Source: Leucobacter chromiireducens subsp. solipictus
GTDB taxonomy: Bacteria; Actinomycetota; Actinomycetes; Actinomycetales; Microbacteriaceae
Length of the DNA stretch: 64,000 bases
NCBI RefSeq assembly: GCF_016758195.1
Contig: NZ_QYAC01000003.1
Coordinates: 62,001 to 126,000, forward strand
Direction of reading: 5' to 3'
How positions within the stretch are numbered: position 1 is the first letter of the stretch; each line of letters opens with the position of its first letter. Both the position numbers and the translations under genes were made by a program. The notes beneath the pieces were generated by a model. The model was given only the letters and a program-made list of their open reading frames with translations, had not been told where the DNA came from and searched no databases. This document shows positions 11,921 through 31,158 of this stretch, piece after piece.

Positions 11921-12997
11921 TCATCCTTTCAAATGCTGAAGTGCGGCCCTCGCCTGCAGCGGTAGTACGCCGTTACCGAGAGCGGCGAGCTGCTGGTTTG
12001 CCGTGAGCAGATCCGTCGGATCAGTCACCCAACCTGACGGGAGACCCATGAGCCATTCGACGAACTCAGGGGCCGGCCTCGGGCGAGGCGTATCGTTCAG
12101 GATCGTCGGCGCCGGGGCTTGCCTTCCGGTGATGTGTTCCCATCTGGCGATGGCGTCGGCGTATCGGCCCCATCGCCGAGTATGCCGTCGATCAGCCACC
12201 ACAACGTCTCGGGTTCGGGCTTCCATTCCTCCGAGCCAGCCGGCCCGTTCAATGCGATGTCGATGATCTGATGCGAGAGCGCGATCGTGCCGCGACGTGC
12301 TTTCACCTGATCCAGGTTCTCCCCGCCCCGCGCCGCGTCGGAGGCGAGCGGGGTGCGGAACAGGGTCGTGCGCGAGGATGAAAACGCGAAACCTCGGGTG
12401 CGGAGCACCGACGGTGGAAGCGGGTAGGCCGATCCATTGCGCGTCATACCCGATGTCGGCCAGGTCTCCGAGAACGGCTCCGGCCGCCCGGAGAGGTCGA
12501 GTTGCGTCGTCTCCCAGACCCCAGTATCCGGGTTCCAGGTCGCGAAGGGTTGCGGGGTGAGGGGTTGCATTATTGCCTCCTTCAGGGGTTGCACGGATCG
12601 CGGATGCAGAGAGCAGCCCGCGCACGTTCTCGATGACAACGAACTCGGGGCGGAGCTGGTCGATCGCTTCGGCCATGTACGACCAGAGGCCGGATCTCGT
12701 GCCGGGAGCAAGGCCCGCCATCTTCCCGACGGTGGAGACATCCTGGCAGGGAAACCCGCCACAGAGTATGTCTACGGGCTCGACGCCGGCCCAGTTGACC
12801 GAAGTGATGTCGCCGAGGTTCGGGGCATCGGGCCAGTGGTGAGCGAAGACGTGCTGCACGGGGCTGATCTCCGAGAACCAGATCGTCTGCGCGTGGAAGA
12901 CGTGCTCCACGGCGAGATCGAGGCCGCCGTAACCAGAGAACAGGGAGCCGACGCGCGGTGGCGCAGGGTCGGAGGGCAGAACTTGGGCTTCTCGCAT
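11921..12997 (-). CDS. DNA C5-cytosine methyltransferase
   Basis: The 358-residue enzyme contains the C5-MTase motifs in order: motif I FSGYGGLD (20-27), motif IV GGFPCQDVS with catalytic Cys84, motif VI ENVRG (about 124-128), motif VIII GAPHPRFRVFILA, and motifs IX-X ending in LAALGNGVLPLQA. It methylates cytosine in DNA. No cognate restriction gene is adjacent, so it is an orphan enzyme, common on actinobacterial elements and phages, probably protecting against restriction. The stretch between motifs VIII and IX, the usual target-recognition region, is very Arg/His/Gly-rich and weaker in codon bias. It is overlapped by a second well-formed frame at 12097-12570. Confidence 0.9.
   Translation of the reverse strand: MREAQVLPSDPAPPRVGSLFSGYGGLDLAVEHVFHAQTIWFSEISPVQHVFAHHWPDAPNLGDITSVNWAGVEPVDILCGGFPCQDVSTVGKMAGLAPGTRSGLWSYMAEAIDQLRPEFVVIENVRGLLSASAIRATPEGGNNATPHPATLRDLEPGYWGLGDDATRPLRAAGAVLGDLADIGYDAQWIGLPASTVGAPHPRFRVFILAHDPVPHPARLRRGAGRGEPGSGESTSRHDRALASDHRHRIERAGWLGGMEARTRDVVVADRRHTRRWGRYADAIARWEHITGRQAPAPTILNDTPRPRPAPEFVEWLMGLPSGWVTDPTDLLTANQQLAALGNGVLPLQARAALQHLKG
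12097..12570 (-). CDS. Nested out-of-frame ORF inside the C5-MTase gene
   Basis: A 157-codon frame lies wholly within the methyltransferase gene on the same strand, in a different frame. Its ATG (12570) is preceded by AAGGAGG at six-base spacing, a near-perfect ribosome site. The product has a natural-looking composition, for example ATWNPDTGVWETTQLDL, the SETWPTSGMTRNG motif, TPLASDAARGG and a C-terminal EPETLWWLIDGILGDG. From memory, the WPTSGMTRNG and TPxxSDxxRGG patterns resemble segments linked with phage and actinobacterial C5-MTases. Over the region between MTase motifs VIII and IX, the third positions of this frame are G/C-rich while those of the MTase frame are not. It is therefore probably translated, perhaps as a partner or specificity subunit. 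Function is not known. Confidence 0.6.
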   Translation of the reverse strand: MQPLTPQPFATWNPDTGVWETTQLDLSGRPEPFSETWPTSGMTRNGSAYPLPPSVLRTRGFAFSSSRTTLFRTPLASDAARGGENLDQVKARRGTIALSHQIIDIALNGPAGSEEWKPEPETLWWLIDGILGDGADTPTPSPDGNTSPEGKPRRRRS

Positions 12998-13944: not shown

Positions 13945-16029
13945 CTACCGATCCGCCGACCACGTGGTATTGGTGGGTGAGCCGACCAGGAGAAAGCTCG
14001 GCCTACCCAGCATCGTGTACATCAGACTCTCGGGAACATATCCTGGTGAGCGTAGCCAGTCTCGTACCTGTTGCTCGTCGTTGGTTCGTGCGGCGATGCT
14101 GACAAGTCGAGCTTCCGCATCCTGATACAAGTGCGTGCGTCTCATGCCATGGTCGCCTGTCATGAACTGCTCGATCGGGCTGATGCCATCCACTCGCGTG
14201 AATGCCCATTCCATGAGCTTGCGGTTCCCATGGACAAGATCAATAACTACGTTTAGAGCTTGAACTTGATGCCAAACATCCATAACTGAAGAGTTCGCGG
14301 CAGTTGCGGAGTCATTGACGGCAAGAGCCACATATCTCAGGAACCGGGCTACAGTCTGCGCGTTGTGGAACACGTCTACTGGAACTAGCGTGCTGAGCAC
14401 CGCAATAGCGCCTTCTCTGATTAGGAGATCTCCGATGTTCACCACTCCTCCGCCTCGCGGCGAGGTATGGCACGCGCTGAGAATCACTAGTGGTGGGACT
14501 GCACCGAAGTCATCGCCAAGGCTACGTTCATTCTCCCCGATAACGATGCCGGCAACGTTTTGTTCAGGCGCGTGAAAACCATGTGCGCTGAGGATCAGTA
14601 CGTCCGGCGCTGAGGCGGTGATCGCTTCACGGAGTGAATCCTTTGTAAGCGTTTCCCTGATTGTGAAGCCAATGCCTGCGGCCTCCATCTCGTCGGCGAT
14701 ACTTGCCCATCCTGTCCGAGATGCTGCACCAACGGGGTCCGAGGTCGGGATGCACTCCGCCACGAGAACTTTGAAGCCCGCCCTCAACAGGCGCGGTACC
14801 TGTGGACTGAGTTCAAACTGCAATGCACGGGTGAGAGGGTTGATGGGACGGTAGTTGATCGGGAGACGATTGCAGATAGGTGAGGAATCGCCGGGAATCG
14901 TCAGTAGCCCAAATGGGAAGTTGGTGAAAGCCTCAATGGATGATGCGCAGCGTATAGCTGCGACCAGTTCGTCGGTCCAAAAGGACTCAGTGACGTCGTT
15001 GAGGCGTTGAAGAAGCCGTTTAACTGCCACTGGACGCGGCCCTTCAGACCAATGGCGCTCTAGCGAGGCGACTGCATGAAACGCTTCTGGCGTCAGTACA
15101 TCTTCAAGGACGATGCCCATCGAGTTGTCCGCCGATGCGACATGGCTAACCATCAGGGCTCTAACTTCTGGGTAGTCATCCCTGAAGGTGCCGTCGATGA
15201 TTCCATCTGGCCCAGAAGAGAACCTGACGTAGCGAGGTGCTGTGCCGGATAGGCTCATCGTTAACCGTATTCGGGTGTTTGATTTCTTCTCCAAAGCTGC
15301 GGGATAATGCGCTTCGGCCGAATCGATGTCGACTCCCTCCTGCTCAAGCTCTGCTAGGGCTTCAAGATGTATTCGAAGCCTTCGGACGTTCGCCGCCGAA
15401 CGAAAAGGAGATACCTGCTCTTCGGGGAGTTCGAGCGGAACTGCCATCATTCGTGCCAGTCTTTGTAGCGAAAGAAGCGAGCCGTCCTGTCGTATCGGCC
15501 ACGACCACCTCGGAGTAGCAGGTTCGAGGACAACGACTTGCGGCCAGTCATCGAGCCATCGTGAAGCCAGAAGCCGCCAGTGTTCGTCTAGAGAGGATTG
15601 ATCTAGCGCATCGAAGGCGGCCGGCGGGAGCAGCGAGCCGATCTGTCTCGAAGCTGTCTGTGCTGCCTCAATTCGGTCAGTGGATGCAAGGATGAGCGCC
15701 GGTTCATGCGGAGCAGCCAATACTGCCATGAGTTCGGCCTCATCTAGCAGCACATCTGGGATGAGGGCGATCGAGTGACCTCGAGGAAAGCCGTCTACCT
15801 GATCTTTGACGGCCGGTATTTGCAGGTCGAGCGTTTCGAACCGGTTCTTTGGAAGGTGCATCGCATAGTGGATTCCAATGAGGGCTGGCAGGAGGGCTTC
15901 GTCAAAGGTTCCGGGCTGCGGCTCATCAGGAATGAACGCTGGTTGGAAGTCCGCTCCATCAGGTCCAAGCGGTGCCGCAACAATGTATAGGGGTGTTGGG
16001 AAGCCCACCTTGTCGTCTTTGTTCGTCAC
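13945..16029 (-). CDS. CHAT-domain (caspase-like peptidase) protein
   Basis: The C-terminal third of this large protein has the CHAT caspase-like dyad: His in VLILSAHGF and Cys in VILSACHTS, followed by GGGVVNIGDLLIREGAIAVLST, which matches the conserved strand after the catalytic Cys. With the GTG start at 16029, chosen because GAGG precedes it, the protein has 694 residues and the dyad is H483 and C520. The first 450 residues have no recognisable domain and no TPR repeats, signal peptide or membrane segment. CHAT proteases act in bacterial defence and controlled proteolysis, often activated by a sensor partner. None is obvious here: the gene is monocistronic and divergent from the relaxase. 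A defence or abortive role is inferred. Confidence 0.8.
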   Translation of the reverse strand: MTNKDDKVGFPTPLYIVAAPLGPDGADFQPAFIPDEPQPGTFDEALLPALIGIHYAMHLPKNRFETLDLQIPAVKDQVDGFPRGHSIALIPDVLLDEAELMAVLAAPHEPALILASTDRIEAAQTASRQIGSLLPPAAFDALDQSSLDEHWRLLASRWLDDWPQVVVLEPATPRWSWPIRQDGSLLSLQRLARMMAVPLELPEEQVSPFRSAANVRRLRIHLEALAELEQEGVDIDSAEAHYPAALEKKSNTRIRLTMSLSGTAPRYVRFSSGPDGIIDGTFRDDYPEVRALMVSHVASADNSMGIVLEDVLTPEAFHAVASLERHWSEGPRPVAVKRLLQRLNDVTESFWTDELVAAIRCASSIEAFTNFPFGLLTIPGDSSPICNRLPINYRPINPLTRALQFELSPQVPRLLRAGFKVLVAECIPTSDPVGAASRTGWASIADEMEAAGIGFTIRETLTKDSLREAITASAPDVLILSAHGFHAPEQNVAGIVIGENERSLGDDFGAVPPLVILSACHTSPRGGGVVNIGDLLIREGAIAVLSTLVPVDVFHNAQTVARFLRYVALAVNDSATAANSSVMDVWHQVQALNVVIDLVHGNRKLMEWAFTRVDGISPIEQFMTGDHGMRRTHLYQDAEARLVSIAARTNDEQQVRDWLRSPGYVPESLMYTMLGRPSFLLVGSPTNTTWSADR

Positions 16030-16183
16030 GCTGAACCTCGGTACTGGATTGTAGATAGATGGGGAACCCAGAATCGCGTTAATGATATAGACGCAATAAC
16101 TAGGTACCTTTGCAAACCTAATCTTGCTACACCAGGGCGGTCTGGATTTCAAGAACCGCGCGGCGTTCGCCCACCTATACATC

Positions 16184-19100
16184 ATGACGGTTTCGATGCG
16201 GATCATGAGCGCCGGGGACGGCTACAAGTATCTCCTGCGCTCGGTCGTCGCGGGTGACGGTGACCGGAGCCTTGCGACGCCGCTGACTCGCTACTATGCC
16301 GAGGCCGGGAGCCCTCCCGGCCGGTGGCTCGGCTCTGGCCTCACCCAACTTGGCGAAGGCCGTATCACTCCTGGCGAGGAAGTATCGGAGCAGCAGCTCC
16401 AGCTCCTCATCGGGATGGGCTGCGACCCGGTGACAGGTGACCCGCTCGGCCGTGCCTACCCGGTCTACAAGACCCCCGCCGAGCGCATCGCCGACCGAGT
16501 TGAAGCCCTCGACCCGGACCTTGGCCCGGCCTCGCGCGCGGAAGCGGTCGCCGAGATCGAAGCCGAAGAACACGGGCGCGGTGCCCGGAAGGCCGTCGCC
16601 GGGTACGACTACACCTTCTCGCTCCCGAAGTCGGCGTCGGTGCTGTGGGCGGTCTCAGACGCCGGCACCCAAGCACTCATCGCCGAAGCGCACCACGCAG
16701 CGATCGCCGAGGTGATCGACTTCATGGAACGAGAAGTCGCCGCCACCCGCGTCGGCATGACCGGCGCCGACGGCGGCGCAGTCGCCCAAGTCGATACCTT
16801 CGGGCTCGTCGCGACCGCCTACGACCACTACGACTCCCGCAGCAATGATCCTCACCTTCACACGCATGTCGTCGTGTCGAACAAGGTGAAGACCGTGCTG
16901 GACGGGCGGTGGCGGTCGCTGGACGGGCGGCCGATGCACGCCGCGACCGTCGCGCTCTCCGAACTGCACGAGGCGATCATCGCCGACCACCTCACCCGGC
17001 TGCTCGGCGTGGAGTGGGAGGCGCGGGATCGTGGCCGCGACCGCAACCCCGCCTGGGCGATCAGAACGGTGCCGGAAGAGCCCATGCTCGAGTTCTCGAC
17101 CCGCGCCCGCCAGATCGACGCCGAGAAAGACCGCCTCATCGCCGAGTACGTTCAGAAGCACGGCCGGCAACCCTCGGCGGCAACGATCATCAAGCTCCGC
17201 GCCCAAGCCACCCTCTCCACCCGGCCCGAGAAGCAGGTGCGCTCCCTCGCCGACCTCACGACCGAATGGCGCAAGCGCGCCACGACGCGGCTGGGGCGGG
17301 AGGCATCGGAATGGGCGCGTGAGGCGATCCCGGCAGCACCCGTACGAGTGCTGCGTGCCGATGACCTTCCTTTGGATGAGATCGAGAAGATCGGCCGTGC
17401 CGTGATGGAGGCCGTGGGTGAGAAGCGGTCGACCTGGCATCGCTGGAACCTGACGGCCGAGGCCGCACGGCAGACGATGGAGTACCGATTCGCGACCGTA
17501 CGGGATCGGGAGGCCGTCACCGGCATGGTCGTCGATGCTGCCGAGCGCGCCTCGCTGCGCCTCACGCCGCCGGAGCTCGCCTCGACGCCGGTGCGGTTCC
17601 AGCGGCCGGATGGGTCGAGCGCGTTCCGCCCCCGCCACGGCACCTTGTATTCCTCCGAGGCGCTGCTCGATGCGGAGAAGCGGCTCCTCGAACGCTCCCG
17701 CATCCTGACCGGCACAAAGCTCCCGCTCGCCCTCATCGAGAAGGTCACGAGGCGACCGGATCGGGAGGGGCGGATGCTCGGCCCCGACCAGGCAGACGCA
17801 CTCACCCGCATAGCGGTCTCGGGCCGTCAGCTTGATCTCCTCGTCGGCCCGGCGGGCACGGGGAAGACGACCGCGATGCTCGCGCTCCGCACCGCATGGG
17901 AACAGCAGCACGGTGCCGGGTCCGTGGTCGGGCTGGCCCCGTCGGCGGTCGCGGCGGAAGTGCTCGCCGGGGATCTCGGGATCAAAACCGAGAACACCGC
18001 CAGGTGGTGGACGCTGCACATCATGACCGGCCGAACCTTCCAGGCGGGTCAGCTCGTGATCGTGGACGAGGCGAGCCTCGCCGGCACCCTCGCCCTCGAC
18101 CGCATCACCGGGGCCGCCGCGAAAGCCTGCGCGAAGATTCTCCTCGTCGGCGACTACGGGCAGCTCCAATCCCCGGCAGCGGCCGGTGCGTTCGGGCTCC
18201 TCGCCGGCGACCGTCACGACACCCCGGAGCTCTCCACAATCCACCGCTTCACGCACGAATGGGAAAAGCGAGCATCGCTGCGGCTCCGCCTCGGAGAACC
18301 CGACGTGATTGATGTCTACCAGGACGCCGACCGGATCATCGGCGGCACCACCGACGACATGACCGCAAGAGCCTACGAGGCGTGGCGGGCAGACCGAGAA
18401 GCCGGGATCGCGTCGATCCTCGTCTCCGACTCCGGCGAAGCGGTGGCGGCGCTGAATCTGCGCGCCCGTACCGAGCTCATCCTCGCCGATGTCGTGCACC
18501 CGCTCAGGGGCGAGGTAACGCTGAGCGGCGGGGTCCAGGCCTCTGTCGGCGACACGGTGATCACGCGGAAGAACGAGAGGAAGCTGCGCACCCGGTTCTC
18601 ATGGGTACAGAACGGGAACAGGTGGACGATCACGAAAGTGCGCCGCGACGGATCAGTGACCGTGCGTCCAGTCGGCCCAGACCGCGGCGAGTCGATCGTG
18701 CTCCCCGCCGACTACGTCGCCCAGCACCTCGACCTCGGCTACGCCGTCACCGCATACCGTGCCCAAAGCGTCACCGTCGATACCTCGCATGTGCTGGCCG
18801 ATCCAACGATGACGCGGGAGAACCTGTACGTTGCCTTTACCCGCGGCAAGGAAGCGAACCTTGCCTACGTCTCCACCGACACTCCGGACGACGCGCACGC
18901 GCACCCGCATGAGGTCGAAGACATAGAAGAAGCAGCCCGTCGGGTGCTCTACGGGGTACTGCATCATTCCGGGGCTGAACTCTCCGTGCACGAGACGATC
19001 CAGGCCGAGCAGGAAAGGTGGGGATCGATCCTGCAACTCGCTGCCGAATATGAGACGATCGCCACCGAAGCCCAGCACGACCGCTGGGCCACCCTCATCC

Positions 19101-19744
19101 GCACCTCCGGCCTCACCGACACGCAGACAGAAGCAGCACTCTCATCGGAAGCATTCGCCGCCCTCGCCGCCGAGCTGCGCCGGGCCGAAGCGAACCATCA
19201 CGACGTTGACCGGCTCTTCCCGCGGCTCGCGAAAGCGCGAGGCTTCGATGACGCCGACGACATCGCCTCCGTCCTGCGCTGGCGCCTCGCCACCGTCACC
19301 CAGCACCCTGCCACAAATGGGCGCGCGGCACAGGCACCGAGGTTGATCGCGGGCCTGATCACCGTCGCCGACGGCATCACCGAACCGGACATGCGGCAGG
19401 CGCTCGCGGAACGGCACCAGCTCATCGAGCAACGCGCCGCCGCCCTCGCAGAGCGGGCCACGGCCGATGGTGCACCATGGGTGCAGGCACTCGGGGCGCG
19501 ACCGGACGATCCGCGCAAGCAGGAGGCCTGGGCGCGGTATGTGCGCACGGTCGCGGCATACCGTGACCGCTACGGCGTCACGAGTGATGATGCCCTCGGC
19601 CCGGCCCCGGACGGGATCGCGCAGACGATCGACCAGGCCCGCGCCGCACAAGCGATCCAGCGCGCACGAGCTCTCACCATTCAGCGGGAGCGCCCGAAGG
19701 CCGCGGCGAACGCGCTCACCAGACGGGGCGCACGGTCGCTCTGA
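16184..19744 (+). CDS. MobF/TrwC-family conjugative relaxase-helicase
   Basis: The 1186-residue protein has the TrwC layout. An N-terminal relaxase opens with SAGDGYKYLL, with candidate nicking tyrosines in TRYYAEAG, and has the metal-binding triad HLHTH at about 224-228. A superfamily 1 helicase follows with Walker A GPAGTGKTT (about 555-563), DEAS Walker B and a late TAYRAQSVTVD motif. The start at 16184 matches family N-termini; later ATG codons at 16196 and 16205 are alternatives. It nicks the transfer origin and unwinds the transferred strand. The origin of transfer was not identified; the 154-base gap to the divergent CHAT gene is one place to look. A small membrane protein follows downstream. 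Confidence 0.93.
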   Translation: MTVSMRIMSAGDGYKYLLRSVVAGDGDRSLATPLTRYYAEAGSPPGRWLGSGLTQLGEGRITPGEEVSEQQLQLLIGMGCDPVTGDPLGRAYPVYKTPAERIADRVEALDPDLGPASRAEAVAEIEAEEHGRGARKAVAGYDYTFSLPKSASVLWAVSDAGTQALIAEAHHAAIAEVIDFMEREVAATRVGMTGADGGAVAQVDTFGLVATAYDHYDSRSNDPHLHTHVVVSNKVKTVLDGRWRSLDGRPMHAATVALSELHEAIIADHLTRLLGVEWEARDRGRDRNPAWAIRTVPEEPMLEFSTRARQIDAEKDRLIAEYVQKHGRQPSAATIIKLRAQATLSTRPEKQVRSLADLTTEWRKRATTRLGREASEWAREAIPAAPVRVLRADDLPLDEIEKIGRAVMEAVGEKRSTWHRWNLTAEAARQTMEYRFATVRDREAVTGMVVDAAERASLRLTPPELASTPVRFQRPDGSSAFRPRHGTLYSSEALLDAEKRLLERSRILTGTKLPLALIEKVTRRPDREGRMLGPDQADALTRIAVSGRQLDLLVGPAGTGKTTAMLALRTAWEQQHGAGSVVGLAPSAVAAEVLAGDLGIKTENTARWWTLHIMTGRTFQAGQLVIVDEASLAGTLALDRITGAAAKACAKILLVGDYGQLQSPAAAGAFGLLAGDRHDTPELSTIHRFTHEWEKRASLRLRLGEPDVIDVYQDADRIIGGTTDDMTARAYEAWRADREAGIASILVSDSGEAVAALNLRARTELILADVVHPLRGEVTLSGGVQASVGDTVITRKNERKLRTRFSWVQNGNRWTITKVRRDGSVTVRPVGPDRGESIVLPADYVAQHLDLGYAVTAYRAQSVTVDTSHVLADPTMTRENLYVAFTRGKEANLAYVSTDTPDDAHAHPHEVEDIEEAARRVLYGVLHHSGAELSVHETIQAEQERWGSILQLAAEYETIATEAQHDRWATLIRTSGLTDTQTEAALSSEAFAALAAELRRAEANHHDVDRLFPRLAKARGFDDADDIASVLRWRLATVTQHPATNGRAAQAPRLIAGLITVADGITEPDMRQALAERHQLIEQRAAALAERATADGAPWVQALGARPDDPRKQEAWARYVRTVAAYRDRYGVTSDDALGPAPDGIAQTIDQARAAQAIQRARALTIQRERPKAAANALTRRGARSL

Positions 19745-22107: not shown

Positions 22108-23283
22108 ATGGCTAGGCCTCGCACACCCATTGGCACCTTCGGGAAGATCAGTCACCGCCGCCTAGGCAAGGGACGATGCGAAGCTCGCGCACGCTACCGA
22201 GACTGGGACGGCAAGCTCCGCGCCGTCCAATGCAGAGGCCTAACTCGTGCCGCGGCGGAACTCGCGCTGAAGCGCAAGCTCGCCGAACGTTCTCTCTTCC
22301 AGCCCGGCTTCATCGGTATCAGCTCCGACAGCCGATTTTCCGCGCTTGTCGACTACTGGCTCGAAGACATGGAGATCGAAGACCGCCTCTCGAAAACCAC
22401 CCGGCAGCTCTACGAACGCAACATGCGCACCCTCGTCGCACCCGTCTTCGCCGAGCTCACCCTGCGCGAGATCGGGGTTGCTCGCTGCGACTACTTCCTG
22501 AAGCAGCTCGCGAAGCAGAGCTACAACCGGGCCCGGCAAGCCCGCGTCGTCCTCAGGCTCGCGCTCGGCCTTGCCGTTCGGCACGAAGTGATCCCGCGCA
22601 ACCCGATGGATCACGTCTCCCGGCTGCGCCGCCCAGTCAGCACTCCGGACGCATTCGAGGACTCTGACATCGAGCTAATCCGCGAAGCGGTGCAGGCCTG
22701 GGAAGAACGGGAGATCACTGCCGGTCCGAGACCTGATGGGCAGCTCGGTCAGATCATCGAAGTGCTCCTCGGCACCTCTGCCCGGATCGGGGAGGTGCTC
22801 GCGATCCGGCTGTGCGACCTCGATCTGCGCAGCCCGATCCCGACGGTGAAGATCACCGGCACGATCGTCAGCCGGAAAGGCGAGCTGACACACCGGCAGG
22901 ATCACCCGAAGACCTCGCGCTCGGTACGGAGGATCGCGCTCCCGGCGTTCGCGATGAAAGCGATCAAGGCCCGCATGAAGAAACGGCTCTCGATCGACCC
23001 CGACGCCTTGCTGTTCTGCAACCGCAACGGCGGCCCGATGACCACGAACAACGTCCGCCGCCAACTCCGCTCGATCATGGACAAAACCGGGCTCGAAGGA
23101 GTCACACCGCACCGGTTCCGCAGGACCGGAGCGACCACGATCTATCACGCGGGCGGACTCGATCTCGCGGCCGGCCTTCTCGGGCACACCGACCCGAGAA
23201 TCACCCAGCACCACTACATCGCCCGCAACGACCTTGTAGATCCGGCCACCGCATCAATGCTCGAACAACGATTCGGAGGATAG
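22108..23283 (+). CDS. Tyrosine site-specific integrase
   Basis: The 391-residue protein has an N-terminal arm-binding region, a core-binding SAM-like domain (about 75-175) and a C-terminal catalytic domain with the expected residues: R226 in TSARIGEVL, H335 and R338 in PHRFRRTG, H360 in LLGHTDPRI and the nucleophile Y370 in HHYIA. The ribosome site GGAGGGCAGC precedes the ATG. It should integrate and excise the element. The nearest plausible attachment site is the partial tRNA-Pro at 31951-31994, about 8.7 kb downstream, with the defence genes in between. No excisionase gene was recognised nearby. Confidence 0.92.
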   Translation: MARPRTPIGTFGKISHRRLGKGRCEARARYRDWDGKLRAVQCRGLTRAAAELALKRKLAERSLFQPGFIGISSDSRFSALVDYWLEDMEIEDRLSKTTRQLYERNMRTLVAPVFAELTLREIGVARCDYFLKQLAKQSYNRARQARVVLRLALGLAVRHEVIPRNPMDHVSRLRRPVSTPDAFEDSDIELIREAVQAWEEREITAGPRPDGQLGQIIEVLLGTSARIGEVLAIRLCDLDLRSPIPTVKITGTIVSRKGELTHRQDHPKTSRSVRRIALPAFAMKAIKARMKKRLSIDPDALLFCNRNGGPMTTNNVRRQLRSIMDKTGLEGVTPHRFRRTGATTIYHAGGLDLAAGLLGHTDPRITQHHYIARNDLVDPATASMLEQRFGG

Positions 23284-23788: not shown

Positions 23789-24979
23789 ATGAGTCAGTTT
23801 GATGCAAGCGCCTCAGCTCTTGGCTTCATCTACCAACTCAGATGGGCGTTGCTGGACCTCCTCCGAGCTATGCGGCGTGACGCGACCATCAGCCTATCGA
23901 TCGAAGACTACGACGACATTGCGCAACTCACTCCCGACGGAGATGTGCATTCGGCTAGTCAGATAAAGAACCACGAAGCACCCGCGCCAGTTACAAACTC
24001 GAGTCCTGACCTCTGGAAAACCTTGCGAGTATGGCTAGAAACACCAGTGCTCCGAGCCAGTGGCGGCCCCCGACTGTATTTGATCACGACGGCGACAGTT
24101 CCCGAGGATTCAGCGGCATGGTTCTTGACACAAGAAGCGCGAGACACGAGTCAAGCATGCGCGCTCCTAACCCAAGCAGCTGCACGGTACACCGCAAAGG
24201 AAACCGAAGCAGGACGGACGGCGTGGAAGGACGCGCCAGAGTCGGACAGGCTAGCGCTCATCGAACGCATCTTTGTCATCGGAAATAACCCCAAGGTCAC
24301 CGAGATTGATGAGATTGTCCGTCAAGAGTTGTCTCAGAGTGTCCGCGATGAACATATGGACCACTTCGTTGAGCGGCTCTGGGGGTGGTGGCATCAACAA
24401 TGCCTGGCTGTTCTCACGAAGGACGGGGTAGCCACGATCTCTGCCGGACAGCTCCGGGCCAAACTCAACGCTCTTCGTGACCACTACACCGAAGGCGCTC
24501 TTCCAATCGACGATAGCCTGGCTGGAATTACCGCTGAGGATATCGGTGACGAACATTCAGGAAAACCGTTCGTACAGCAACTCGAGTGGATTCAGATTCG
24601 CGGTAAGAACATGCAGCGAGCGCTCATCGATTACCACCGGGCATACGCACAAACTACGAAGTGGCTTCGGGACGGAGACCTTGTTGAGGACGACCTCAGC
24701 AGGTACGAAAGGATGCTCGTTGAAGAGTGGGAGATTCAATTCGAGAACGCGTGTGACCGGCTCGACCGGCTAGGGGCGACTGATGATGCAGCCAAAGTGG
24801 AAACCGGTCGTTCTCTGTTTGAAAAACTCTATGAAATGAACAACGTAGTAATCCAGGCGGGGTTCACTGAGCGATTCCTTAGCGGAGGAACCCGCCATGT
24901 GATTGCTAATCGAGGTGATCTCGGGTGGCATCCAGATTTCCGTGAGCGAGTCCGAGAGCTTTTGGGAGTTCCTGCATGA
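23789..24979 (+). CDS. ABC-3C system effector with REase-fold nuclease domain
   Basis: The 396-residue protein opens with GFIYQLRWALLDLL and continues with SIEDYDDI (E39, D40) and SQIKNHE (Q58, K60). This acidic plus QxK layout is that of the DUF4297/Cap4-like restriction-endonuclease-fold nucleases. The C-terminal half, including a WIQIRGKNMQRALIDYHRAY segment, matches the conserved region that couples such effectors to ABC three-component systems, as I know the family. It should be a DNA nuclease kept in check by the two following proteins. Its stop overlaps the middle-component start by four bases. The other two genes of the system follow in order, which strengthens the call. Confidence 0.8.
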   Translation: MSQFDASASALGFIYQLRWALLDLLRAMRRDATISLSIEDYDDIAQLTPDGDVHSASQIKNHEAPAPVTNSSPDLWKTLRVWLETPVLRASGGPRLYLITTATVPEDSAAWFLTQEARDTSQACALLTQAAARYTAKETEAGRTAWKDAPESDRLALIERIFVIGNNPKVTEIDEIVRQELSQSVRDEHMDHFVERLWGWWHQQCLAVLTKDGVATISAGQLRAKLNALRDHYTEGALPIDDSLAGITAEDIGDEHSGKPFVQQLEWIQIRGKNMQRALIDYHRAYAQTTKWLRDGDLVEDDLSRYERMLVEEWEIQFENACDRLDRLGATDDAAKVETGRSLFEKLYEMNNVVIQAGFTERFLSGGTRHVIANRGDLGWHPDFRERVRELLGVPA

Positions 24980-25467
24980 CCTCATCAGATCCTGGTCACC
25001 GGCCGGAATTATCCACAGCTATCCTCAACCCTGCAATCGTTGCAGCGTCGATTCAGTGGGCTAGCCGTCGGCACAGTGACACAGGCAAACGGTCGATGCC
25101 ATGGGAGTACTCCTTCCTTATCGTGCCGCTTGTCTTTCATCAGCGCACCCGGCTTGAGCTTCCACAAACTTCGACTACTCATCTTCCTGTTTGGATTAAC
25201 AACCACCAGAGCGTCTTGGCTGGTTTCCCGCAGCGGGCAAAAAAGTTCACCTCCCACGTTCGTGAAGGTATTCGGTATGGACTTCGAAGCGGACAGCTCA
25301 CCCTCAACGCTGACGCAACGTTCAGAGGATCAATGAGATCCGGAATAACGCTTCCGGAAGATTCGGAACTTAAGAGCATCCTCTCGTCGTCTGCCACAGT
25401 TGGAGGCATTTTCTCAAAATCTGGCACCCCTGTGAACGTATTCACGCAGTTTGGAGTATCTCCCTAA
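24976..25467 (+). CDS. ABC-3C system middle component
   Basis: The 163-residue protein sits between the nuclease effector and the ABC ATPase, overlapping the first by four bases and the second by one. It starts with LSTAILNPAIVAASI, has YSFLIVPLVFHQRTRLELP in the centre and ends with ILSSSATVGGIFSKSGTPVNVFTQFGV. The layout is typical of ABC-3C middle components, which are thought to link ATPase and effector. No enzymatic motif is present and none is expected. Confidence 0.78.
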   Translation: MTSSDPGHRPELSTAILNPAIVAASIQWASRRHSDTGKRSMPWEYSFLIVPLVFHQRTRLELPQTSTTHLPVWINNHQSVLAGFPQRAKKFTSHVREGIRYGLRSGQLTLNADATFRGSMRSGITLPEDSELKSILSSSATVGGIFSKSGTPVNVFTQFGVSP

Positions 25468-27470
25468 TGCAGATTGTCAGTATCAGCATTTATCACCAGG
25501 ATGGCCGGAGAAGAGACGTAAATTTCCGCCTTAACGCCCTAAACATCATTACGGGCGACTCCAAGACGGGGAAAAGTTCGTTGCTCAACATTGTTGACTA
25601 CTGCCTCGGGCGCAAAAAGTCTTCAATCCCTCGCACGAAATGGTTCAAGGCCATCGCTTGGTTTGCTGTGGTCTTCCAGCTGCCAGGTGGTAACCGCGCT
25701 CTTGTTGCGCGAATCCCGCATGCGCCCGGCATATCAAACCACCGAGCCATGCTGGAGTTCGGGAACTCCGAAATGGTTGCTCCGCCCGCAGAACAGCTGC
25801 GGCTGAATGTCGACACAGAAGCCCTGCGGACCCAGCTTGGAACGCACATTGGCTTGGCGGGCGTGCAATTGGAATCGAGCGAGAACTCAACCAGGGGCCC
25901 GGTCTCTGTGGGGCTAGGGAGTGCGGTACCCTTCACGCTGCAGGAACAGCATGAAATCGACAACAAAGTCTCATTGTTTCACAGGCAGGACGAGCACGGA
26001 ATTGCGCAAGGACTCAGGGACTCACTCCCATTCTTCCTTGGCGCAGTGGACGGGGAACAAGCAGCAAAGAGAGCGAGGCTGCGAGAAGCCCGTCAAAAGC
26101 TCAGGCGTGCGGAGAATGCACTCGACGCCGCCGAGGAAGGACTCAAAGCGCAGCACCAGGAACTCCGTGAGTTGCTGAGCGAAGCTCGATCTGTTGGCCT
26201 CATCACGTCGCGAGTTGACGATCCAGGACAAAGCATCGTGGATGTGCTCAACAACGTGAGATTTACAAGACTGTCGGAACCAGTCATCTCCAAGGCCGAT
26301 CTTGCTGCCCAGGACGAACGGCGCCGAAATGAACAGAAACGTTTTGAGCTCGCGCAGGAGCTCAACGTTTACATGAACAACCGTGAGCTTCTACTCGACG
26401 TACGAGATGGAGAAGGCGATTACGACGATTCATTGTCACTCCAGATCGAGCGATTGAGCGTGCTCGACTTCATCCCTCATCGAGACAGGCATAAGGATGT
26501 TTGCCCGGTCTGTGAGCAGGTGATGCCTCAGCCAGACGCAACAGTCGAAAGCCTTAATTCCCGACTGTACGAGCTGCGTGACGAACTCTCGCAGGTGACG
26601 GCCAGAAGACCCAAACGGCAACAGGCGTTGAGAGAGAATGACGGTGAGATCGACCGCATTCGACGCGAGCTGAGCATCATCGACGCGACGATGGACGGAA
26701 GCGCCGTATCCGATCTCAACATGAATCCGAGCGCGTTGCGCGAAGCGCAACAATTCGTTCGCGGCCGCATCGATGCCATCCTGAGTAATCTGCAAGGCCG
26801 TGATGACACCGAAGTGGCAAGGCTCCGTAGCGCTCGTGAACAGGCACAGGCAATGGTCGAAGCGCTCGAGAGCGAACTCGACGGCGGTGAAGCCCGAGAG
26901 CAGCTGACCTCACGCTTGAACGCACTAAGTGTCCTCCTGGGAAGTTACAGCCAGCGGCTCAACCTCGAGCAAGCCGATATGCCGATTCGACTGGACGTTC
27001 ACCAGCTCACAATCGTTGTGGATACTGAAGACGGCCCGCTGCCTCTCCCCAATATTGGAAGCGGTGAAAACTGGGTCGGTTACCATGTTGCCGCGCACTT
27101 GGCGCTCCACGAGTACTTCTTGAAACAGCGCCGCCCCGTGCCTCGATTTCTCATGTTCGACCAACCCAGCAAGGCCCATTTCCAGTCGGATCGGCCTCGC
27201 GATCCAAACGATGAGTACGTCGATCCTGATCGAGAGTCTGTGCGGAACATGTTCAAACTCTTCGCTGATTACTCCGACGCCCTCAACGGTCAGATCCAAC
27301 TCATCGTTGTCGACCACGCAGATTATGAGGATGACTGGTTCGCGAACTCAGTTATATACAACTGGAGACAAGGTCGAACATTCATTCCCAACACCTGGCT
27401 TTCTCCTGAGGCGCAGTTGCTTCCGGACGACGCCAGCAGCGAGCAGCTCCGACTGGAAGCCACGCCTTAG
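25467..27470 (+). CDS. ABC-3C system SMC-like ATPase (DUF3732)
   Basis: The 667-residue protein is an SMC/Rad50-like ABC ATPase. Walker A is GDSKTGKSS at 30-38. Long coiled coils (about 200-300 and 360-490) flank a Rad50-type hook-like CPVC near residue 345. The C-terminal half carries the GSGENWVGYHVAAHLALHE signature and the FLMFDQPS Walker B region, both characteristic of the DUF3732 ATPases of ABC three-component conflict systems. It probably senses invading DNA or an altered nucleoprotein state and licenses the nuclease effector. It is cotranscribed with the two upstream genes. Confidence 0.87.
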   Translation: MQIVSISIYHQDGRRRDVNFRLNALNIITGDSKTGKSSLLNIVDYCLGRKKSSIPRTKWFKAIAWFAVVFQLPGGNRALVARIPHAPGISNHRAMLEFGNSEMVAPPAEQLRLNVDTEALRTQLGTHIGLAGVQLESSENSTRGPVSVGLGSAVPFTLQEQHEIDNKVSLFHRQDEHGIAQGLRDSLPFFLGAVDGEQAAKRARLREARQKLRRAENALDAAEEGLKAQHQELRELLSEARSVGLITSRVDDPGQSIVDVLNNVRFTRLSEPVISKADLAAQDERRRNEQKRFELAQELNVYMNNRELLLDVRDGEGDYDDSLSLQIERLSVLDFIPHRDRHKDVCPVCEQVMPQPDATVESLNSRLYELRDELSQVTARRPKRQQALRENDGEIDRIRRELSIIDATMDGSAVSDLNMNPSALREAQQFVRGRIDAILSNLQGRDDTEVARLRSAREQAQAMVEALESELDGGEAREQLTSRLNALSVLLGSYSQRLNLEQADMPIRLDVHQLTIVVDTEDGPLPLPNIGSGENWVGYHVAAHLALHEYFLKQRRPVPRFLMFDQPSKAHFQSDRPRDPNDEYVDPDRESVRNMFKLFADYSDALNGQIQLIVVDHADYEDDWFANSVIYNWRQGRTFIPNTWLSPEAQLLPDDASSEQLRLEATP

Positions 27471-27855: not shown

Positions 27856-30800
27856 ATGGCAAATCCAGCGATCGAACCATGGAGCGCAGCGCTCAGCACT
27901 TTCGGCGCCGAAAGCGCTGCCAAACTCGATGGACCTGGCGACCGCGAAGCAGCGATTCGCGGCCCTCTTGAGCAACTCATTAAGTCCGTCGGCAGTCTCG
28001 TGGGCAGAGCCGCTGTGCTGCATGACGAGGTGCGAGACCAGGAGCGTCGTGTGCGCCCCGATTACGGGGTCTCCATCAATAGAGTCATGATCGGGTACAT
28101 CGAGGTGAAAGCTCCTGGGCGCTCTATTAATCCGACGGAGATGACCGGACATGACCTGGAGCAGTGGACTCGACAACGAGATCTGCCGAACCTGCTCTAT
28201 ACCAACGGTACGGACTGGCGATACTATCGCGGCGGGGAACTGATTGAACAGGCCATTCTGACGCCCCAGTCCCTGGTTGATGTCGGAGCAAACCTAGAGG
28301 CCACGCCTCAACTCGAGGCTATATTTCGAGCGTTCCTGAACTGGACGGCTGCCCCCATCACATCGGTGCGGTCCTTGGTCCGCGCAATCGCACCGCTGAC
28401 TCGTTTGTTGAGAGGCGAGGTTCTCGATCAGCTCGCCGCGGAGCGGAAACGTATCTCTTCCGGAGAGCTCGAGGACGAACAACCCTTTATCGGACTAGCC
28501 CGCGATTGGCGTCGCCTGCTCTTTCCTCAGGCTGAGGACGAGACCTTTGCAGATGGGTATGCGCAGGCGGTGACCTTCGCGCTTCTCCTCGCGCGCACTA
28601 GCAACATCGAAATCTCTGGCCGCAGCCTGCATGAAGTTGGTAGGGAGCTTGGCCTTCAACATTCACTCATGGGGCGAGCGCTCCAGCTGCTCACTGACGA
28701 CGTGGCCACTGATTTCAAGGTGTCACTCGACCTGCTGGTCACCGTAGTAGGCGCAGTACGTTGGGACAGAATTCGCTCCAGTAAGCGTGACGTCTATCTC
28801 TATCTCTACGAAGAGTTCCTGGCAGAGTACGATGACGAGCTCAGGCAGGACTCCGGTACTTACTACACGCCGAAGGAACTAGTAGACGAGATGGTGCGCC
28901 TGACGCAGACGGTTCTCCAGGAAGAACTAAAGATTGACCAGGGCTTCGCATCCTCCGATGTCTACACGATAGATCCGGCGATGGGAACGGGCACTTTCCT
29001 CCAATCGATTGTCGAAACCGTCCAGGAACAGGTGAAGATAGAGGAAGGCCCTGGTGGCGTCGCCGATGCTTTGACTGAGCTGGCGCAACGTCTAGTGGGA
29101 TTCGAAATCCAGATGGGACCTTACGCAGTGGCCGAGCTGCGTGTGGCAGAGCTGCTCACGCAAGCTGATGCTTCACTGCCCGATGACGGACTCAAACTTT
29201 ATGTCACCGACACACTCGATGACCCGAATGCTGATATGACGCAGATCGCATCCGGTCTTCAACCGATTGCTAATTCTCGCAAGCGAGCGAACGCGATCAA
29301 GCGTTCCCAGAAGGTCAACGTCGTTATTGGCAATCCACCCTATCGAGAGCTGGCTTCCGGTCTTGGCGGGTGGGTTGAACATGGTAGCGGTGCCGATGGC
29401 AAGGAGAGCGAGGGCGTTCTTAGTGCCTTTCTCGAAGACGTACCGGGTCGCATTGCCGCGAAATTGAAGAACTTCTACATCTATTTCTGGCGGTGGGGTA
29501 CATGGAAGGTATGGGAATCAACACCGGCTGATGAGACCGGAATCATCTGCTTTATCACGACATCTGGGTATGTCACCGGCACAGCTTTCAAGACAATGCG
29601 TCGCTATATTCGTCAACACGCCAGTGACGGGTGGATCATCGACTTGACGCCGGAAGGGCAGACGCCGGAGGTGGCAACGCGAATCTTTCCTCAGGTACGG
29701 CAGCCGCTGGCCATTGGAATATTCGTGCGCCGCCCAGAAACCGACCTTGCCACCCCAGCCAACCTTCGCTACTTGTCCGTGCATGGTAGGCGTGCTGAGA
29801 AGTTCAGCCAGCTTCGGAAACTTGAGATTTCGGACGCTTCTTGGCGAACTGTTCGCACTGACTGGACGGCGCCGTTCACGGCGGCAGCCTCGTCTTCTTG
29901 GGATGACTGGCCCACCGTAGACAACATCTTTCCCTGGTACTCTCCGGGTGTCTTCCCGACCCGGACGTGGGTATATTCTCCTTCCAGCTCTACGCTCGAG
30001 GCGCGTTGGAAGACCTTGGTGGGAGAGGCTGACCAAGAGGAACGACGAAAGCTCATGAAGGACTCCGGAACGGCTTTCCATTCAGAGTTCAAGGATTTGC
30101 CAGGCTATCCGCATCCAGCGCGGCTGCCCAAGATTTCCTCACTCACTGCGCAGAGTGACGCGGAGCCAATCATCAAAGTCGGTTTCCGGGCGTTCGATCG
30201 CCAATACTTGTTAGCAGATCCACGCCTCATTCACCGTGCCCGAGAAGGTCTTTGGGAAGCTGCGCTTGTGCAGGGTCAGGTGTTTGTCTTCGAACAACAT
30301 GTTCACTCCATCTCAGGAGGGCCGGGGCTGCTGTTTTCCGGTTGGATTCCTGATAACCACCATTTCAATAACCGTGGTGGTCGATCAATGCCGTTCCTGC
30401 ACCCGGACGGCACTGCAAATCTCGCCTCGGGACTGGTTACCGCGCTCACATCAGAATTTGGAGAGCCAGTTGAACCCGTTGATGTGCTGGCCTATGTTGC
30501 AGCTGTGACTGCGCACCCGGGATTTACTTTAGATTTTGCAGACGAGCTTGAGACGCCGGGGATCCGCGTCCCGTTGACGAAAGATTATGCACTTTGGGCA
30601 GAAGCGGTTGAGCTTGGCAAGGATCTACTAACGGCTCAGACTTTTGGACGGTTCGATGGCTCGGATATTGCCTATTCCCAGGACGATCCCCGTCGCGTGA
30701 TGATCCGAGACCGAGTTAAGGAGTTGCCCCAGGGACTTTCTTACGATGCCTCTGCAGAGGAGATCATTGTGGGTGGAGGACGGTTTGGCCCTGTCTCCCG

Positions 30801-31158
30801 GAAAGTCTTTGAATACAGTGTTGGTGGGAGAAACGTCCTAAAGTCATGGGTGGGATACCGCTCCAATGAGCCCGCTGGAAAGCGCACCTCTCCGCTTGAC
30901 GATCTCAACCCAACGGTTTGGGAGCGTGAATGGACGAAGGATCTCCTGGAAGTACTTACAGTGCTCTCTAAGCTTGTAGCCCTCGAAGAAGGCCAGGCCA
31001 AACTGCTAAAGAAGATTGTTTCGACGCCCGTCTTTACTGTGACTGAACTCGAAGAGTGTGGTACCGCTTGGCCAAAGCAAGACAGTGATCGCAAGCCGCG
31101 CCGCGCCATCACGAACGCGCTGTTTGACGTCGAGGCGGTCGTGAAGGATGGAAACTAG
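27856..31158 (+). CDS. Single-chain restriction-modification enzyme (type IIG/ISP-like)
   Basis: The 1100-residue polypeptide joins a nuclease and an adenine methyltransferase. The N-terminal PD-ExK domain shows RPDYGV and GYIEVKAPG (about 68-88). A helical coupler follows (about 180-330). The N6-adenine MTase has motif I DPAMGTGTF (about 373) and motif IV NPPY (about 493). The C-terminal part (about 700-1050) resembles the specificity domain of type ISP enzymes. No helicase domain is present, unlike LlaGI-type ISP enzymes, so it is closer to type IIG. Modification and cleavage by one chain would explain the absence of separate hsd genes. It stands alone downstream of the ABC-3C genes. Confidence 0.88.
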   Translation: MANPAIEPWSAALSTFGAESAAKLDGPGDREAAIRGPLEQLIKSVGSLVGRAAVLHDEVRDQERRVRPDYGVSINRVMIGYIEVKAPGRSINPTEMTGHDLEQWTRQRDLPNLLYTNGTDWRYYRGGELIEQAILTPQSLVDVGANLEATPQLEAIFRAFLNWTAAPITSVRSLVRAIAPLTRLLRGEVLDQLAAERKRISSGELEDEQPFIGLARDWRRLLFPQAEDETFADGYAQAVTFALLLARTSNIEISGRSLHEVGRELGLQHSLMGRALQLLTDDVATDFKVSLDLLVTVVGAVRWDRIRSSKRDVYLYLYEEFLAEYDDELRQDSGTYYTPKELVDEMVRLTQTVLQEELKIDQGFASSDVYTIDPAMGTGTFLQSIVETVQEQVKIEEGPGGVADALTELAQRLVGFEIQMGPYAVAELRVAELLTQADASLPDDGLKLYVTDTLDDPNADMTQIASGLQPIANSRKRANAIKRSQKVNVVIGNPPYRELASGLGGWVEHGSGADGKESEGVLSAFLEDVPGRIAAKLKNFYIYFWRWGTWKVWESTPADETGIICFITTSGYVTGTAFKTMRRYIRQHASDGWIIDLTPEGQTPEVATRIFPQVRQPLAIGIFVRRPETDLATPANLRYLSVHGRRAEKFSQLRKLEISDASWRTVRTDWTAPFTAAASSSWDDWPTVDNIFPWYSPGVFPTRTWVYSPSSSTLEARWKTLVGEADQEERRKLMKDSGTAFHSEFKDLPGYPHPARLPKISSLTAQSDAEPIIKVGFRAFDRQYLLADPRLIHRAREGLWEAALVQGQVFVFEQHVHSISGGPGLLFSGWIPDNHHFNNRGGRSMPFLHPDGTANLASGLVTALTSEFGEPVEPVDVLAYVAAVTAHPGFTLDFADELETPGIRVPLTKDYALWAEAVELGKDLLTAQTFGRFDGSDIAYSQDDPRRVMIRDRVKELPQGLSYDASAEEIIVGGGRFGPVSRKVFEYSVGGRNVLKSWVGYRSNEPAGKRTSPLDDLNPTVWEREWTKDLLEVLTVLSKLVALEEGQAKLLKKIVSTPVFTVTELEECGTAWPKQDSDRKPRRAITNALFDVEAVVKDGN

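Follow-up and report, generated by a model that had tools for sequence, protein, structure and literature searches.

Split C5 methyltransferases and the layout of the locus

C5-cytosine DNA methyltransferases made of two polypeptides are already known. In one of them, M.EcoHK31I, the small ORF is reported by Lee et al. 1995 to lie nested out of frame within the large ORF. In bacteria few long overlaps on one strand are known for which function of the two frames has been established. The consulted portion of PMC5944983 places the recognition domain of C5 methyltransferases between motifs VIII and IX and reports that enzymes divided after motif VIII and ahead of the recognition domain can complement (PMC5944983). 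For M.EcoHK31I (YGGCCR), according to the consulted portion of PMC3404938, the larger polypeptide carries motifs I-VIII and X together with the predicted recognition domain, and the smaller polypeptide carries motif IX; the title of a reference cited there states that both are required (PMC3404938). For M.AquI (CYCGRG) the same portion of that source gives two polypeptides, the small subunit consisting of the distal variable region plus motifs IX-X (PMC3404938).

We analysed a stretch of 64,000 nucleotides from Leucobacter chromiireducens subsp. solipictus, referred to as the window. Table 1 lists the features of a locus in which one ORF (beta) is fully enclosed by another (alpha, 12997..11921) on the same strand. 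Alpha belongs to PF00145 by the sequence criterion, with an E-value of 2.7e-29 and 103.1 bits compared to a gathering cut-off of 22 (Pfam), and we could read the PCQ, ENV, VIII, IX and X motifs in its translation. The names of these motifs (FVEWLMGLP for IX, GNGVLPLQA for X and the others) are presumed. Alpha also matches phrog_363 over amino acids 5-356 with E 9.7e-67, and beta matches phrog_1008, annotated as 'DNA methyltransferase', at profile positions 67-150 of 329 with E 1.7e-15 (PHROGs).

A sequence-only reading of this DNA had described a nested same-strand ORF of 157 codons with an AAGGAGG inside a C5 methyltransferase gene, and we found it at 12570..12097. The AAGGAGG is present, but it is separated from the ATG by 5 bases and not by 6 as claimed. 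All peptides named in that reading were recovered, namely WETTQLDL, SETWPTSGMTRNG and TPLASDAARGG in the nested frame and GYWGLGDD with motif VIII in the methyltransferase frame. The G/C-rich third positions attributed to the nested frame were likewise seen: across nested codons 71-120 the nested frame had a GC3 of 0.82, compared to 0.52 for the methyltransferase frame and 0.70 for the third frame.

Table 1. Features of the alpha/beta locus, in coordinates of the window
Feature	Position	Strand	Remarks
Alpha, C5-cytosine DNA methyltransferase ORF, 358 aa	11921..12997	minus	Motifs I-VIII, then IX and X
Beta, nested ORF in +1 frame, ATG 12570 to TGA 12097	12097..12570	minus	157 codons plus TGA; proposed recognition-region subunit
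Shine-Dalgarno AAGGAGG	12576..12582	minus	5 nt ahead of the beta ATG
Beta codons about 8-70 (WNPxxGxWETxQ, SETWPTSGMTRNG), over alpha motif VIII	12361..12549	minus	Constraint in both frames
Beta codons about 71-120 (LFRTPLASDAARGG...TIALSHQIID), recognition region	12211..12360	minus	Constraint in the beta frame
Alpha motif IX (FVEWLMGLP), presumed	12038..12064	minus	Methyltransferase frame, downstream of beta
Alpha motif X (GNGVLPLQA), presumed	11951..11977	minus	Methyltransferase frame

Several further genes lie in the window. A TrwC-type relaxase-helicase (16124..19744, plus strand) and a phage-type integrase (22108..23283, plus strand) suggest a mobile element adjoining the methyltransferase. 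A CHAT-domain protein with a PADLOC BovA match lies at 13945..16206 on the minus strand. On the plus strand we found a three-gene ABC-3C / Lamassu-like defence operon with matches to LmuA, LmuC and LmuB (23789..27470) and a Type ISP/IIG restriction-modification enzyme of 1100 aa (27856..31158). Elsewhere in the same genome there is a second C5 methyltransferase (G000:C4:304712-305764), which matches positions 2-320 of 324 of the Pfam profile.

Constraint on the two frames and on the internal start

To compare substitutions by frame we used a codon alignment of 25 homologues that share this layout. The window genome and its relatives contributed 24 of them and a Microbacterium plasmid the remaining one. 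The set excludes duplicates, L017, which nearly copies L016, and L026-L030, which are divergent or differ in layout. Rates were compared over 12 disjoint pairs drawn from this set. Outside the overlap alpha varies mainly at codon position 3: upstream of beta the difference rates for alpha positions 1/2/3 were.062/.052/.246 and downstream.294/.234/.521, and in each alpha-only flank the third-position differences exceeded the first-position differences in 12 of 12 pairs, with the flipped pattern in none. Across beta codons about 8-70 the normal third-position excess was absent (.122/.047/.121) and we observed identities of 0.867 for alpha, 0.842 for beta and 0.776 for the third frame. The stretch between motifs VIII and IX varies at the beta wobble position. 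For beta codons about 71-120 the rates were.349/.109/.080, and the variation was concentrated at alpha position 1, i.e. the third position of beta, in 11 of the 12 pairs and the opposite way in none; the identity was 0.876 for beta, compared to 0.603 in alpha and 0.626 in the third frame. The three frames were alike across beta codons 121-138 (0.745, 0.716 and 0.716), none of them being prominent. Stop codons in the nested frame would have spoken against the sequence-only reading, but in the 25 aligned homologues they are confined to the C-terminal tail, from codon 132 onwards, and the reading withstands this check.

The number of stop codons in each frame was then set against the number expected under synonymous shuffling. 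As the first loci had been found through beta, we drew a second sample with alpha residues 1-140 only, which lie upstream of the nest. Its viral part was the best 80 among the matches listed, some on contigs in common with the beta-found sample; 20 were not anchored by the pattern and two were duplicates, which left 58 loci. Among 30 loci from relatives 16 were not anchored and two were duplicates, leaving 12 to be tested for openness. For the 58 viral loci (from the best 80 listed) we counted 1 stop in frame B, the frame of beta, compared to 89.3 expected, and 57 were open compared to 15.8 expected. The third frame of these loci contained 95 stops compared to 105.1 expected, as predicted. Frame B of the relatives showed no stop (6.6 expected) and neither did the beta-found set of 81 loci (77.6 expected), for which the regular-expression anchoring had missed 30 of 124 loci. 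Canonical C5 methyltransferases from the relatives contained 8 stops compared to 10.0 expected, a thin control with 4 of 20 loci anchored. Looking at individual viral loci, L215 (from the best 80 listed) has one stop in the tested stretch of frame B, in L191 and L197 frame B is closed near motif VIII, and in three open loci (L186, L195 and L222) the beta signature was not seen by eye. The converse shuffle, of alpha across the recognition region given beta, gave 0 stops in the 25 homologues where 28.6 were expected, with all 25 open compared to 8.2 expected; alpha is thus held open through to motifs IX and X.

The start of beta showed a similar picture. The sequence-only reading made the retention of AAGGAGG and ATG a check on itself: by hand count the exact AAGGAG precedes the frame-B start in 21 of the 25 homologues and a close variant in three, with neither in L023. 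A Shine-Dalgarno match of at least 5 bases at the proper distance before the frame-B start was found in 17 of 25 methyltransferase-ascertained loci of the relatives (1.3 expected) and in 16 of 70 viral loci from the best 80 listed (2.4 expected), compared to 0 of 9 canonical C5 methyltransferase controls (0.2 expected). In 22 of the 70 methyltransferase-ascertained viral loci (from the best 80 listed) not even a match of at least 4 bases was present. In many phages the start signal of beta falls inside the conserved ENVRGLL stretch. Taking the expectation from the remaining Arg codons of the same ORFs, we found the Arg at the ENVR site coded by AGA or AGG in 20 of 21 methyltransferase-ascertained viral loci from the best 80 listed (3.1 expected), in 41 of 59 beta-found viral loci (8.1 expected) and in 6 of 9 phage records (0.8 expected). 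This preference is missing in the relatives (3 of 30, 2.5 expected), which have a distinct AAGGAG further downstream of the ENVR site. Judged from these counts, the start signals of frame B are under selection.

The dual coding proposed in the sequence-only reading is thus borne out at the sequence level by the frame-specific substitutions, the two-way synonymous-shuffle tests and the selection on the start site. By these measures both frames are selected and the arrangement is conserved.

Distribution and motif layouts

Alpha and beta occur together. In 199 genomes alpha was matched with an E-value no higher than 1e-37 at 47 places, and all of these had a beta match alongside (hand count; a few partial and one cut by a contig end), compared to 0 of the 83 weaker alpha places, which are mostly other C5 methyltransferases (also counted by hand). 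Partial beta matches at G036:C5:23402-23677 and G093:C1:192350-192538 have no alpha match there and may be remnants or something else. A match on a Sinorhizobium plasmid (H85, 31.5% identity) was treated as chance; L038 has no listed gene and no methyltransferase could be made out by eye.

Related pairs range from actinobacteria to phages of Bacteroides, Paenibacillus, cyanobacteria and enterobacteria. Annotated nested +1 pairs have already been deposited for Paenibacillus phage Bloom (gp56/gp57) and Escherichia phage K1G (ORF31/ORF30), the nested frame of the Microbacterium plasmid is annotated as a hypothetical protein, and Salmonella phage SW3 also has the nested arrangement. Of 5426 E. coli genomes 68 contain DNA resembling the SW3 gene, with at least 80% of the gene covered in five, on DNA similarity and irrespective of reading frames. 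In the literature searched, which was covered in part and mostly as titles and abstract openings, we did not find the arrangement described as a family.

The position of motifs IX and X relative to the two frames differs between lineages. In the window and in at least 21 of 30 distinct loci from relatives both motifs are in frame A, the frame of alpha, and the recognition region alone is in frame B; this layout is also present in some actinophages such as PFR1 and in a Candidatus Megaera plasmid (GC 0.44). For Bacteroides phage BS162P3 (GC 0.44) and Sulfitobacter phage phiGT1 the translations show motif X in frame A and motif IX in frame B, as do viral contigs down to GC 0.41. In the phages Catdawg, Twister and Samora frame A ends shortly after motif VIII and frame B runs on into IX-X, and Catdawg gp5 matches positions 64-318 of phrog_1008. 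Among 65 untruncated methyltransferase-ascertained viral loci (from the best 80 listed) at least 25 had X in A and IX in B, at least five had both motifs in B and at least seven had both in A; one or both motifs were not recognised in 28. These counts are lower bounds, because the motif patterns missed some loci (32 of 255).

Several loci depart from these layouts. In L027 (G021:C38) 23 bases are missing in the overlap compared to three relatives and the C-termini are swapped, with motifs IX-X in frame B and the remainder of the recognition region in frame A. The deletion may be decay or a natural exchange of tails, and a split beta match at G029:C3 probably reflects the same swap. In the phages and viral contigs L032, L035, L034 and L083 beta often contains 'LLPTPxASDG' units repeated several times in tandem, which look like an array of recognition modules, and in L034 and L083 the motif IX-X end is in the third frame. 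In L029 and L033 the array begins with one or more LPTP-like units in frame B and has a later one in frame A alongside IX-X, and is thus distributed over both frames. For Arthrobacter phage Abidatro (L031, gp40/gp41) and Ovechkin (L032) the annotated second gene starts downstream of the overlap, 282 and 432 bases, respectively, after the beginning of the beta match. Records of this kind probably lack the N-terminus of beta.

Interpretation and comparison with known enzymes

We are confident, from the sequence evidence, that a single stretch of DNA codes here for both polypeptides of a C5-cytosine DNA methyltransferase, with beta predicted to give the specificity. Alpha, the long ORF, would supply motifs I-VIII, for catalysis and SAM binding, as well as IX and X. 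Beta would initiate independently in the +1 frame at the strong ribosome-binding site within alpha, and alpha would pass through the recognition region as a weakly constrained linker that is kept open to reach IX and X. The two products would then assemble into one enzyme in which beta confers the DNA specificity. Beta is most likely the second subunit carrying the recognition region, as the same frame elsewhere continues into motif IX or IX-X. It is best read as a part of the methyltransferase because the stretch from VIII to IX is covered by frame B in every layout, and in two of them this frame bears conserved methyltransferase motifs as well. The suggestion in the sequence-only reading that a partner protein is made from the recognition region fits these observations, given the constraint on the nested frame between VIII and IX and its continuation to IX or IX-X in other lineages.

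There are several other possible explanations for an open and conserved frame inside a methyltransferase gene. The GC-rich gene could simply leave its +1 frame open, and the similarity of beta could be an echo of conserved methyltransferase codons. The GC content of about 0.66 is in keeping with such an artefact and shuffling itself expects some openness of the +1 frame, in 6.9 of the 12 loci from relatives and 15.8 of the 58 viral loci (from the best 80 listed). However, frame B is open far beyond its synonymous shuffles and the third frame is not, the nested +1 layout was also found in sequences of GC 0.41-0.47, and the substitutions track the nested frame where the methyltransferase frame is unconserved. 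The shuffle tests and the substitution pattern led us to reject this explanation, which we regard as extremely improbable. We also judged it highly unlikely that the ribosome is programmed to move from the methyltransferase frame into the nested frame (and, in the window, back again) to yield one fused enzyme. The frame-B start signals are selected, the window would require two opposite shifts and beta has a stop of its own, even though in many phages the first frame does end shortly after motif VIII and the second holds the rest of the enzyme. Since the conserved N-terminus of beta overprints motif VIII, a frameshift would also forfeit one or the other.

If beta is translated, it could still act as something other than a methyltransferase subunit, e.g. 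as a regulator or an inhibitor. No fold or domain could be assigned to it: Pfam and NCBIfam gave no match and phmmer against the PDB returned nothing below E 1. The AlphaFold2 model of the window beta alone was poor (pLDDT 66.2, pTM 0.30), and Foldseek with this model found neither a C5-methyltransferase small domain nor any other match at E 0.001; a motif-IX-bearing beta likewise gave a low-confidence model and nothing at E 0.001. Against a separate role stand the enzyme motifs IX or IX-X that the same frame bears in other lineages and the precedent of M.EcoHK31I as an enzyme of two polypeptides, both required by the cited title (PMC3404938, consulted portion), and we consider such a role quite unlikely. 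A hidden homing endonuclease has next to no probability. The ShiLan element is likewise an out-of-frame ORF in actinophage methylases, as far as the consulted portion of PMC11855218 goes, but beta, unlike a disjunct insertion, is present at all 47 strong alpha matches in the relatives and overlaps the conserved motif VIII. We rejected the HNH element on the finding that beta has no HNH or other match in Pfam or NCBIfam.

With the two-polypeptide methyltransferase as the preferred reading, the comparison of layouts leads us to favour, by a modest degree, a broader view. Bipartite C5 methyltransferases with an overprinted +1 recognition region may form, on sequence similarity, an ancient and widespread family of phages and bacteria rather than a peculiarity of a single E. 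coli enzyme. Motifs IX and X and single recognition units would have moved between the frames because indels in the overlap swap the tails, which would account for the three main layouts (IX-X in alpha, IX in beta or IX-X in beta) and for recognition-unit arrays over both frames.

For this locus selection could be resolved by frame, the internal start signals are selected, and related pairs extend from actinobacteria to several groups of phages. Many records named 'DNA methyltransferase' may cover half an enzyme, and alpha cloned alone may yield no activity or the wrong specificity. The assignment of motifs should presumably include a check of the other frame for a partner. The layouts also provide a natural series for asking why a specificity domain stays locked to its catalytic gene in another frame.

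The bipartite kind of enzyme is not new, and M.EcoHK31I is the nearest known example. Alpha of the window resembles its large subunit in carrying motifs I-VIII and X. Both systems have two overlapping same-strand ORFs in different frames, both selected in the window; the nesting in M.EcoHK31I is as reported. In M.EcoHK31I motif IX is confined to the smaller polypeptide and the larger one is predicted to contain the recognition domain, whereas in the window motif IX is in alpha (12064..12038) and the constrained recognition region is in beta. The small subunit of M.AquI has motifs IX-X, whereas beta of the window is completely nested and ends before IX, with IX-X in alpha. Some actinophage pairs (Catdawg gp6/gp5) have an M.AquI-like split of motifs but with an out-of-frame overlap of 209 bases. 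The pairs Bloom gp56/gp57 and K1G ORF31/ORF30 each comprise an annotated C5-methylase gene that, like alpha of the window, encloses another gene in the +1 frame; their translations differ from the window in having IX in beta and X in alpha. The phrog_1008 profile extends to the IX-X region whereas the window beta stops earlier, and it is the C-terminus of the window alpha that matches profile positions 217-317. As motif IX stays in alpha, the layout of the window is a variant of the M.EcoHK31I arrangement.
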